Shown: in pieces, positions 1-43,631 of the stretch
Position numbering within the stretch: the first letter of the stretch is position 1
Layout: each line of letters opens with the position of its first letter
Assembly: GCF_000374645.1 (NCBI RefSeq)
Contig: NZ_KB894809.1
Span: forward strand, 43,628-107,627
Origin: Arhodomonas aquaeolei DSM 8974
GTDB taxonomy: Bacteria; Pseudomonadota; Gammaproteobacteria; Nitrococcales; Nitrococcaceae
Length of the DNA: 64,000 bases
Direction of reading: 5' to 3'
The notes under the pieces: generated by a model
What the model was told of the DNA's origin: nothing
Database searches by the model: none
Seen by the model: the letters and a program-made list of their open reading frames with translations, nothing else
Position numbers and translations under genes: made by a program

Positions 1-705
1 TTGGCTGCTCCTGGCAGCCAACATCCCGGTGCCGCTACACCGGGGCGAAAACGCCGGCTGCCTTGAGCAGCCGACCTACCGGAGCGCGCCGGGGGACCGG
101 TTCCAGCCCTGTTCGGTCGGGTAGGTTGGCGACTCCTGGCAGCCAACATTCCGGTGCCGCTACACCGGGGCGAAAACGCCGGCTGCCTTGAGCAGCCGAC
201 CTACCGGAGCGCGCCGGGGGACCGGTTCCGGCCCTGTTCGGTCGGGTAGGTTGGCTGCTCCTGGCAGCCAACATCCCGGTGCCGCTACACCGGGGCGAAA
301 ACGCCGGCTGCCATTGAGCAGCCGACCTACCGGAACGCGCCGCGGGACCGGTTCCGGCCCTGTTCGGTCGGGTAGGTTGGCTGCTCCTGGCAGCCAACAT
401 CCCGGTGCCGCTACACCGGGGCGAAAACGCCGGCTGCCTTGAGCAGCCGACCTACCGGAGCGCGCCGGGGGACCGGTTCCAGCCCTGTTCGGTCGGGTAG
501 GTTGGCGACTCCTGGCAGCCAACATTCCGGTGCCGCTACACCGGGGCGAAAACGCCGGCTGCCTTGAGCAGCCGACCTACCGGAGCGCGCCGGGGGACCG
601 GTTCCGGCCCTGTTCGGTCGGGTAGGTTGGCTGCTCCTGGCAGCCAACATTCCGGTGCCGTTAGACCGGGGGACAAACGTCGGCTGCCGGGAGCAGCCGA
701 CCTGC
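1..705. repeat. Tandem array of a 125-bp REP/BIME-like unit
   Basis: Units begin at 1, 126, 251, 377, 502 and 627. The third is 126 bp and the last diverges after about 660. Each unit holds two short hairpins facing each other: TTGGCTGC-tcctg-GCAGCCAA preceded by GTAGG, and CGGCTGC-cttga-GCAGCCG followed by ACCTAC. A GTAG tetranucleotide at the foot of a GC-rich hairpin is the hallmark of REP sequences mobilised by RAYT proteins, and inverted pairs of these are called BIMEs. Bases 1-250 are identical to 377-626, so a three-unit block was duplicated. The array is cut by the window edge and probably continues to the left. Reading frames through it are open only because of base composition. Confidence 0.9.
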
Positions 706-733: not shown

Positions 734-774
734 GCAACGCCGGCCGGGCTACCGCCGGCCGGTCTGGGCGTTGC
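734..774 (-). terminator. Inverted repeat at the 3' end of minE
   Basis: GCAACGCC at 734-741 pairs with GGCGTTGC at 767-774, and CCGGCCGG inside each arm extends the stem. It spans the minE stop codon and would form a very stable hairpin at the end of the min transcript. There is no U-tract, so intrinsic termination is only possible. Confidence 0.4.
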
Positions 775-1030
775 CTTCGCCGCCTTCCGGCAGGGTGATG
801 TTGAGCTCGAGGACGTCGCAGTTGCCCTCGTGCTCGACCTCCATGCGAACGGCGTCGTCGCTCACCTGCACATACTTGCGGATGACCGAGAGCAGTTCCT
901 CCTGGAGCTTGGGCAGGTAATCCGGCCCGCCGCGCCCGGAGCGCTCGCGGGCAACGATGATCTGCAGCCGCTCCTTGGCCACGGAGGCCGAGCGGCGCTT
1001 CTCGGAGCGGAAATAGTCCAGGAAGCTCAT
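749..1030 (-). CDS. minE: Cell division topological specificity factor MinE
   Basis: This 93-aa protein drives pole-to-pole oscillation of MinCD by binding MinD on the membrane and stimulating its ATPase, so the Z-ring forms only at midcell. The N-terminus MSFLDYFR is the membrane-targeting helix. The segment around residues 13-30 ([15 protein letters not shown]) is the MinD-contact region, which refolds from strand to helix in known MinE proteins. The rest is the dimeric topological specificity domain. Length is normal for the family. It starts 4 bp after the minD stop and is the last gene of minC-minD-minE. Confidence 0.96.
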
Positions 1031-20972: not shown

Positions 20973-20999
20973 GTCGGTTGCCAAGAGCAGCCGATCTAC
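20973..20999. repeat. Solitary REP half-element
   Basis: GTCGGTTGCC-aaga-GCAGCCGATCTAC is the right-hand hairpin of the 125-bp unit with a few changes. It directly abuts the IS110-type transposase fragment. Confidence 0.65.
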
Positions 21000-21000
21000 C

Positions 21001-21132
21001 CGAGCTGCGGTGCTCGCACACGCGCTGCGCCGGCAACAACCGCACCTCCACCCCCTGAGCATGCAGACGCCGTGCCCAGTAGCGCACCCGCGAGCCCGTC
21101 TCCAGTACCACCTCCAGCGGCCCCGCCGGTTC
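21001..21132 (-). pseudogene. IS110-family transposase fragment
   Basis: A 44-codon stretch on the minus strand reads LEVVLETGSRVRYWARRL followed by HAQGVEVRLLPAQRV. This matches the N-terminal DEDD-domain region of IS110 transposases (pattern E-x-G-x-x-x-YWARxL-x-x-x-G-x-x-VRLxPAQ). No start codon or downstream catalytic part remains. It is bordered by a half REP on one side and a BIME on the other. Confidence 0.65.
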
Positions 21133-21156
21133 CGGCCGGGATATACCATGCCACCC

Positions 21157-21271
21157 GCAGGTTGGCTGCTCCTGGCAGCCAACAGCTTCGAGGCCTGTGC
21201 CGGTTACCGGCGCATGGCCGGTCCACGGCGGGTATGGCAGGACGTCGGCTGCCTGCGGGCAGCCGACCTAC
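21157..21271. repeat. BIME-like REP pair, first subfamily
   Basis: GCAGGTTGGCTGCTCCTGGC begins a hairpin equal to the left hairpin of the 125-bp unit except for the GTAG foot, which is GCAG. The right hairpin GTCGGCTGCCTGCGGGCAGC ends in CGACCTAC. The spacer between the two hairpins is unrelated to that of the array. Confidence 0.75.
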
Positions 21272-39800: not shown

Positions 39801-42800
39801 TGACCACGCGCGCTTCCCGGGCCTGATCCCGTGGTTCGCCGCCAACCCCGTCGCCGCCAACCTGCTGATGGTGCTCGTCATCGCCCTGGGCGTGGGCTCG
39901 GCGTTCACGCTGCGCAAGGAGGCCTTCCCCAGCATGGAGCCGGACAGCGTCACGGTCTCAGTGACCTACGACAGCGGCTCCGCGCGCCAGTCCGAGGAGG
40001 GCCTCGCGATCAAGATCGAGGACGCCCTCCAGGACGTCTCCGGCATCGATTCGATGACCAGCACCTCCACGGGCAGCGGCACGACGGTGACGGTGGAGAA
40101 ACGCAACGACTACGACCTCGACACCCTGCTCACCGACGTGCGCACCCAGGTCGACGCGATCTCCACCTTTCCCGCCGACGCGGAGAACCCGGTGGTGGAG
40201 AAGGGCGAGCGCGAGGACCACGCCCTGTGGCTCCAGCTCCACGGTGATACCGACCGCCATACCCTCCAGCAGCTCGCCGACGAGCTCAAGACGGCCCTGC
40301 TCGGACGCGCCCAGATCAGCCGGGTCAGCCTCTCGGGGGAGCGCGACCCGATCATGGCGGTGGAGATCGACGAGGGCCGCCTGCAGGCCTACGGCCTGTC
40401 GCTCTCGGACGTCGAGGACGCCGTCAATAACGGCTCCACCAGCACCATGACACCGGTGCTGCGCAGCGACACCCTCTACCTCCAGCTCAAGGCTTCGGAG
40501 CAGGCCTACGAGCGCGGCGAGTTCGCGGCCATCCCGCTGATCACCACCGCCGACGGCCACCGGGTGCGTCTGGGCGACGTGGCCGACGTCCACGATACCT
40601 ACGACGAGGACACCCCGGTCCTGTCGCGCTTCAACGGCGAGCCTAGCGTCGCGCTGGAGGTCGTCAGCACCGGCGGGGACGACATCACCGAGTCGGTGGA
40701 GGCCGCCCGGGAGGTCGTCGATCAGTGGCGTACCGACGGCCACCTGCCCCGGGGCGTGTCCCTGGACACCTGGCACGACCGCAGCACCTCCATCAACGGG
40801 CGGCTGCAGCTGCTGGTGAAGAACGCAATCACCGGTATCGCCCTGGTGTTCGTCCTGCTGGCGCTGTTCCTCAACCTGACGGTGGCCTTCTGGGTGGCGA
40901 TGGGCCTGCCGTTCATCTTCTTCGGCACACTGTTCTTCATGGGCGACGCCTTAGCGGGGCTGACGCTCAACGAATTCACCACCTTCGGGTTCATCATTGC
41001 CCTGGGCATCGTCGTCGACGACGCCGTGGTCGTGGGCGAGAGCGTCTACACGGTGCGCGAGCAGCACGGCGACACGGTCGCCAATACGGTCCTCGGCACC
41101 CGCCGGGTGGCGGTGCCCACGCTGTTCGGCGTGTTCACCACGGTCGCCGCCTTCTATGCCCTCTCGCAGACCAGCGGCGGGCTGGGCGAGCTCTATGCCC
41201 AGTTCGCGATGGTCGTGGCGATCTGCCTGGTGCTCTCCATCATCGAGTCCAAGCTTATCCTGCCGGCCCACCTCGCCCACCTGAATACCCATCGCGGGCG
41301 CAGCCGCAACCCGCTGATGCGGGGCTGGCAGTCCATCCAGAACGGGGCGGACGCCGGCCTCGCGGCCTTTACCGAGCGCTGCTACCGCCCGGTGATCCGC
41401 TGGGCGCTGCACTACCGCTACGCGGTGGTGGTGCTGTTCCTGGCGCTGTTCGTGCTGGTGATCAGCATGCCGCTGACGGGGACCGTGCCGATCAGCTTCT
41501 TTCCGGCCGTCACCGGCGACACCGTCTCGGCAGAGCTGACCATGCGCAACGACGCCAGCTACGGCCAGACCCATGCAGCCCTGCGGCTGCTGGAGGATCG
41601 CGCCCACGATGCCGACCGCGCCCTGCGCGGTGGCGGCGACACCGGCATCGCCCACCTGCAGGTCCTCTCCGAGGCGGATCAGAGCGGCACCGTGGACGTG
41701 GAGCTGAGCGACGACGCCCCCTACGACCTGCCGGCCTTCACCCGTCGCTGGCGCGAGCTTGCCGGGCTGCCGGAGGGGGCGCAGTCGCTGAGCGTCCGCA
41801 GCACCCGGCAGATGGTCGACGACGTGCGCATCGAGCTGCGCGCCAGCGACGATACGGTCCTCACCCAGGCAGGCGAGCGCTTCAGGGCCGCCCTGAACGC
41901 CTATCCGGCGGTCAGCGGCGTCGAGGACAATCTCTCCCCCGGCCAGCCGCAGCTGCACCTGGCGCTGACGCCCAGGGGGCGCGCCCTGGGGCTGACCACC
42001 GGGGAGCTTGCCGCACAGGTCCTGCGCACGTTCAACGGCGAGGTGGTCCAGCGCTACCAGCGCGGCCGCGACGAGGTGGAGGTCACCGTCCGCTACCCGG
42101 AGGGCCAGCGTCAGAGCGCCACGGACGTGCTCAACGCCCGCGTGCGCACCGACGACGGCGACGTCCTCGCCCTCTCGGACGTCGCCACCGCCACCTACGG
42201 CTACACCCGCGAGAGCATCACCCGGATCGACGGCAAGCGCGCGGTCTACCTCTCCGGCGACGTGGACAAGGACGTGATGTCCACCACCGGGCTCGTGGCC
42301 GAGCTGCAGGCGAACGTGGTCCCGAACCTCGAACGTCAGTACCCCTCGCTGGACGTGCACTTCGCCGGCGAGGCCGAGGAGCAGGCGGAGACGCAGAGCT
42401 CCATGACCCGGATGTTCCTGCTCGCGCTGCTGATGATCTACATCCTGCTCGCCGTGCCGCTGGGCTCGTACCTGCAGCCGGCGGTGATCATGACCGCCAT
42501 CCCCTTCGGCATCGTCGGTGCCATTCTCGGTCACTGGATCAACGGCCTGGCGCTCAGCATCCTGTCGCTCAACGGGATCGTCGCCCTGAGCGGCGTGGTG
42601 GTGAACGACAGTCTCCTGCTCGTGGCGCGCTTCAATGAGCTTCGGGCGGACGCCACCCACCTGCGCGGCGCCATCGCCGAGGCCTGCACCAGCCGGCTGC
42701 GGGCGGTTCTGCTCACGTCACTGACCACCTTCGCCGGGCTGATGCCCCTGCTCACGGAGACCTCCACGCAGGCGCAGTTCCTCATCCCGGCGGCGGTCTC

Positions 42801-42945: not shown

Positions 42946-43631
42946 GCACACTGCTGATCGAGGACGACCTGGACCTGGCCGGCACCGTCGTGCAGTACCT
43001 CGACATCGAGGATATCCGCTGCGACCACGCCAGCAACGGTCCCGCCGGTCTCACGCTCATGGAGGCCGGCAGCTACGACGTGCTGCTCCTCGACCTCAAC
43101 CTCCCGCGCATGGACGGGCTGGGCGTGTGCCAGCGCCTGCGCACCCGCGGCGACGACACGCCGGTGCTCATGCTCACCGCCCGGGACACCCTGGACGACA
43201 AGCTCGAGGGCTTCCGCGCCGGCACCGACGACTACCTGGTCAAGCCCTTCGAGCTCCAGGAGCTGGTGGCGCGCATCCACGCCCTCGCCCACCGGCGCAG
43301 CGGCCAGGCACGCCAGCTCCGGTACGCGGACCTGGTGATGAATCTGAGCGAACACACCGTCACCCGCGCGGGCCGGACACTGCGCCTCTCACCCACGGGC
43401 TGGCGGCTGCTGGAGACACTGCTTCGCGCCGCCCCGGCGGCGGTCTCACGCCGGGCCCTGGAAGAGGCGGTATGGGGCGACGAGCCGCCGGACAGCAACA
43501 GCCTGAAGGTCCATCTTCACAACCTGCGACGCGCGGTGGACGCCCCCTTCGATACCGCGCTGGTACACACGGTCAGCGGCTACGGCTTCGCCCTGAGGAC
43601 CCCGGCGGATGAAACGCCCGATCAGTCTTAA
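42939..43631 (+). CDS. OmpR-family response regulator (PmrA/QseB type)
   Basis: A 230-aa DNA-binding regulator. The receiver domain (1-115) has the acidic pocket EDD (8-10), phospho-acceptor Asp52, Thr80 and Lys102 in VKPFE. The winged-helix effector (about 130-225) contains SPTGWRLLETLLRAAPAAVS and LKVHLHNLRRAVD. It is phosphorylated by the kinase encoded next and probably regulates its own efflux operon through the repeat at 37151-37167. Overlaps the pump gene by 7 bp and the kinase gene by 23 bp. Confidence 0.93.
   Translation: MLSTLLIEDDLDLAGTVVQYLDIEDIRCDHASNGPAGLTLMEAGSYDVLLLDLNLPRMDGLGVCQRLRTRGDDTPVLMLTARDTLDDKLEGFRAGTDDYLVKPFELQELVARIHALAHRRSGQARQLRYADLVMNLSEHTVTRAGRTLRLSPTGWRLLETLLRAAPAAVSRRALEEAVWGDEPPDSNSLKVHLHNLRRAVDAPFDTALVHTVSGYGFALRTPADETPDQS

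Follow-up and report, generated by a model that had tools for sequence, protein, structure and literature searches.

A RAYT gene and an adjacent tandem array of REPINs beside minE in Arhodomonas aquaeolei

The 64,000-nucleotide stretch of the Arhodomonas aquaeolei DSM 8974 genome analyzed here (the window; positions 43628–107627 of contig NZ_KB894809.1, hereafter C10) opens directly within a tandem array of hairpin-bearing units located near minE, and this raises the question as to what kind of element the array is and what gave rise to its reiteration. An initial annotation, made from the sequence of the window alone, read the units as REP sequences arranged in BIMEs, and predicted that a RAYT (TnpA-REP) gene would be found elsewhere in the genome, which is 3.96 Mb in 48 contigs. 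This reading is upheld, in that a RAYT gene adjoins the array and REP copies are present genome-wide. The locus is very probably a REPtron, with a RAYT gene and a tandem array of cognate REPINs directly downstream of it and before minE, and it is a further case of a known RAYT/REPIN arrangement, not a new system.

Organization of the array

A tandem repeat with a period of 125, 5.6 copies and a 95% match is reported by TRF at window positions 1–703. The units begin at positions 1, 126, 251, 377, 502 and 627, with lengths of 125, 125, 126, 125 and 125 bp followed by a partial unit of about 77–79 bp, such that the 125-bp repeat initially described is correct but the six units are five full units plus one truncated. 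The array extends leftwards past the window edge, with the right-hand segment occupying window 1–705 and the left-hand segment C10:43132–43527, beginning about 496 bp to the left of the window. The two are separated by exactly 100 N (C10:43528–43627), the last of which is the base preceding window position 1. About 10 REPINs are assembled, in addition to the gap, and because the gap cuts the array its assembled length should not be taken as the real length.

Numbered across the whole array, the units in the window, all on the + strand, are unit 5 (1–125, type A, the GTAGG head of which is lost in the assembly gap), unit 6 (126–250, type B, carrying a stem-breaking TTGGCGAC), unit 7 (251–376, type X, 126 bp), unit 8 (377–501, the same as unit 5), unit 9 (502–626, the same as unit 6) and unit 10 (627–705), a diverged and truncated edge unit that is a REPIN without a linker. 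A unit is composed of a REPIN of 84–85 bp and a linker of about 41 bp (e.g. 331–371, + strand), and in a search of the genome the linker was seen in the rayt–minE array only. Interior units differ from one another by 0–6 bases, and edge units by 7–19.

Each unit contains two outward-facing GTAG-type hairpins, as had been described, with heads of the form GTAGG...CCTAC. Intact forward REPs, GTAGGTTGGCTGCTCCTGGCAGCCAAC, are located at 246–272 (+ strand) and at 372 and 622, with mutated versions at 121 and 497; intact inverted REPs, with a GTAGGTCGGCTGC head, are at 303–330 (− strand) and at positions ending at 79, 204, 455 and 580, with GCAG in this location at 705. Two complete REPINs with perfect ends result, at 246–330 (85 bp) and 372–455. 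The REPs have the form GTAGG followed by TYGGCTGC-loop-GCAGCCRA, with the arms matched in 49 of 51 and stems of 9–10 bp, closing pairs counted. Covariation is seen at the stem position that follows GTAGGT, where the pairs are C-G in 25, T-A in 24 and C-A in two (Fisher p=1.5e-12). As in REPINs and BIMEs generally, the two REPs are inverted (GTAG...CTAC), span 84–85 bp and are predicted to fold back together; the complete REPIN at C10:43999–44086 folds at −34.2 kcal/mol, whereas shuffled versions average −15.9 (z = −8.0, with 0 of 300 shuffles as low). With the TTGGCGAC change the forward hairpin is predicted to be less stable, at −6.4 kcal/mol instead of −11.2. A search of the array region against Rfam gave nothing above the gathering thresholds.

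Open frames of 84–121 codons cross the array, and the units might be viewed as a protein-coding repeat, or as an unrelated satellite with chance hairpins. We regard this as extremely improbable, as the open frames are on both strands, as GC-rich DNA would give, and the frame shifts from copy to copy with the 125-bp units; covarying stems, genome-wide hairpins and the adjacent RAYT gene also contradict it. Because 125 is not a multiple of three and the stem pairs covary the unit is not coding, and a repeat with conserved codons, which the initial annotation had named as grounds for abandoning the REP reading, is rejected, with no common frame across the 125/126-bp units.

The RAYT gene beside the array

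The RAYT gene predicted by the REP reading lies just outside the window, at C10:42611–43105 (RAYT1; + strand, 164 aa), flanked by the same hairpins as those of the array, which begins 26 bp past its stop codon. RAYT1 scores 173.7 bits on the NCBI RAYT model NF047646 (cut-off 80) and aligns with E. coli TnpA-REP (4er8) across residues 2–153 (E=3.8e-48). Its HxH motif (H59-L-H61) and tyrosine (Y115) both align with those of 4er8, and together with the model score these identify it as a Y1 HUH protein of the RAYT/TnpA-REP type. The genome holds two RAYT genes according to the NCBI model; a search of the genome with PF01797 returned no RAYT, which is a false negative because RAYT1 falls just under the cut-off (19.2 bits versus 23).

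Cognate REPs flank RAYT1 on both sides, with REPs of the same family (REP-A) at C10:42149–42233 and the array from 43132; a GGATG-headed pair at approximately C10:42475–42506 lies between this REP-A copy and the gene. The rayt and minE genes converge on the array, which separates their 3′ ends; minE is at window 749–1030 (− strand) with its 3′ end towards the array. To the left of the window there is also a segmental duplication containing REPINs (C10:40835–41014, 41161–41341 and 42149–42507), in which fragments from the 3′ end of a LysM-domain gene, together with the REPIN downstream of it, are repeated at about 84–89% identity between that gene and rayt.

Flanking of rayt genes by inverted GTAG REPs, with about one third of RAYTs directly associated with a BIME, has been described previously (Nunvar et al. 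2010, PMC2817692). RAYT1 resembles E. coli yafM and S. maltophilia Smal4, where inverted GTAG REPs flank the rayt gene and the downstream REP can be that of a BIME (PMC2817692), and differs from these cases in that its partner is a long tandem array, broken by an assembly gap. GTAG dimers can also be tandemly reiterated together with flanking DNA (PMC3733652). In Pseudomonas fluorescens SBW25, tandem REPIN clusters lie beside each of the three RAYTs (Bertels and Rainey 2011, PMC3116915), and like the array here these consist of near-identical tandem REPINs, including their flanks, beside the cognate RAYT. The array described here is of another sequence family, and contains about 10 REPINs plus the gap whereas the largest ordered cluster in SBW25 has four (PMC3116915). 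Tandem REPIN clusters beside RAYTs were thus already published in 2010–2011, and the C10 locus is a new example.

The E. coli TnpA-REP (4er8) is homologous to RAYT1 over 152 residues, and the two systems share HxH, Y115 and GTAG heads (PMC8266576). In the E. coli-type group 2, however, REPs depend on a stem bulge (PMC8266576). The REP-A stems are unbroken and lack the mismatch, and for this reason RAYT1 is given no formal group assignment. An E. coli-like RAYT that is paired with unbroken REP stems deviates slightly, as judged from the sequences, from the rules for E. coli substrates. By analogy with E. coli TnpA-REP, RAYT1 would bind single-stranded GTAG-headed hairpins, and would cut and rejoin DNA beside them through Y115 such that REPINs spread; with stems that have no bulge, recognition of these REPs by RAYT1 is putative.

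REP copies across the genome

Pattern searches show that REP sequences are not confined to the array. In the window, GTAGGTYGGCTGC with up to two mismatches occurs 28 times versus 4.1 expected (0 of 100 shuffles), and with up to one mismatch this REP head occurs 146 times in the genome, versus 33 for a reversed-pattern control. The heads are spread over many contigs, with their intergenic placement examined around C10 only. The REP hairpins are therefore dispersed genome-wide, and an absence of copies outside the locus, which would have counted against the REP reading, is not seen. By contrast, the complete unit of 125 bp, linker included, is restricted to the rayt–minE array, and was not found in the 58 relatives searched, none of which is a congener.

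All 11 exact-ended REPINs fall within C10:26301–44082, corresponding to 0.45% of the genome and no more than 18 kb from RAYT1, and a genome-wide pattern search found no exact copies outside of this segment; the contrast with the rest of the genome is inflated in that the pattern was derived from the local subfamily, and the 11 include several duplicates with common flanks. This resembles the Marinomonas REPtrons Ma and Mb, in which REPs are concentrated near the RAYT (PMC8266576), a pattern interpreted by the authors of that study as recent arrival. Unlike Ma and Mb (PMC8266576), degenerate REP copies are also found genome-wide here.

Several other REP-containing segments were noted. One further REP-A cluster in the window (20987–21271, with heads at 20987, 21157, 21240 and 21259) is more degenerate than the array. 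Other tandem REP arrays are located at C3:210823–211363, C3:164167–164664, C26:9243–9581 and C4:182609–183264, with periods of 101, 196, 165 and 350 respectively, and the genome thus has more than the one array near minE. Sequences of 290–323 bp that share 97–99% identity lie next to REPs at contig ends (starts of C10 and C7; C1, C24 and end of C32); Rfam searches at three contig starts (C7, C16 and C24) gave no RNA above the gathering thresholds.

Order of the units

The initial annotation proposed duplication of a three-unit block. Window positions 1–250 are exactly the same as 377–626, and TTGGCGAC is limited to window units 2 and 5 (positions 126 and 502), both as reported; the identity continues to base 274. 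Two identical units and a 376-bp spacing are the basis for the block duplication, which fits the assembly, although just A and B of the three units are fully seen twice, and beside the gap. The left piece of the array contributes 62 bases of unit 4, and these match type X and type A equally; should it belong to type X, the order is X-A-B-X-A-B followed by the diverged edge unit.

It is possible, albeit on the doubtful side, that the REPIN array is real but that its A-B-X-A-B order is an artefact of assembly, with the true copy number and order being different. The 100-N gap lies inside the array and ends exactly where the window starts, and the left piece stops at the base where types X and A/B first diverge, the kind of place at which short-read assemblers typically meet a branch. 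A second N gap, at C10:36196–36700, likewise falls within a REPIN duplication. Against this, the X-A-B-X-A-B reading is internally consistent, and similar tandem REPIN arrays are present in the assemblies of other genomes. The pattern of the array itself suggests that copy number changes through slippage, or through unequal exchange among units that are almost identical, and that this would yield a homogeneous middle with diverged edge units; the repeated A-B pair would then be a multi-unit block duplicated by the same means. We note that both of the assembly gaps seen on C10 fall in REPIN repeats, and that the two sides of the 505-N gap at C10:36196–36700 share 212 bp at 92%.

Tandem arrays beside RAYT genes in other genomes

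A survey of 108 distinct related RAYT loci, in which tandem arrays were defined as having a period of at least 50 bp and control tiles were drawn from the same loci, revealed an array within 500 bp 3′ of the RAYT in 19 of 101 cases, compared to 6 of 102 on the 5′ side and 13 of 733 control tiles. Relative to the rest of these loci, tandem arrays are thus about 10 times more common in the 500 bp following a RAYT (Fisher p=7e-11 for 3′ versus control, p=0.005 for 3′ versus 5′), with the p-values being optimistic because the loci are phylogenetically uneven and many are from the Halomonadaceae. Most of the RAYT-adjacent arrays contain GTAG/CTAC-ended foldback units.

The bias of tandem arrays to the 3′ side of RAYTs offers a testable lead on the origin of REPIN arrays. 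One rather unlikely proposal is that RAYT activity itself drives tandem amplification in cis, with REPINs multiplying preferentially beside the 3′ end of the gene. If this were so, intact and homogenized copies would last only near the RAYT while distant copies decay, and the 3′ bias across unrelated RAYTs would be a mechanistic signature and not a product of chance.

In none of 109 related RAYT loci was minE present in the flank examined, and the place of the array beside minE looks incidental; the remark on tandem BIMEs beside minE is one of the weaker points of the initial annotation. The same observation bears on the view that the array is kept because it is of use to the host, be it in bounding transcription from both directions, in stabilizing mRNA 3′ ends or in relieving supercoils, instead of being a mere by-product of amplification. 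Its position between convergent rayt and minE and the strong predicted REPIN fold (z = −8.0) are in keeping with such roles, which have been ascribed to REP/BIME elements (PMC8266576). Nonetheless, we consider this unlikely, given the missing minE neighborhood in the related loci and the presence in two units of a stem-breaking change that was duplicated, not removed.

A second RAYT and its REP family

The second RAYT gene (RAYT2) is located at C3:201503–201994 (− strand), and has a different family of GTAGG hairpins, GTAGGTCGTGCACGGCC..., on both sides, with a tandem array of 5.4 copies about 9 kb away. RAYT1 and RAYT2 are each paired by position with their own REP family, as are the RAYTs of SBW25 (PMC3116915), and the two RAYT–REP pairs in one genome constitute a natural test of specificity. 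In a family-level relative, a third GTAGG family lies on both sides of the closest RAYT. A tree unites RAYT1, RAYT2 and the RAYT of this relative (100/90), and because RAYT2 groups nearer to the relative's RAYT, RAYT1 and RAYT2 probably diverged before the split from the relative, with transfer between lineages as an alternative.
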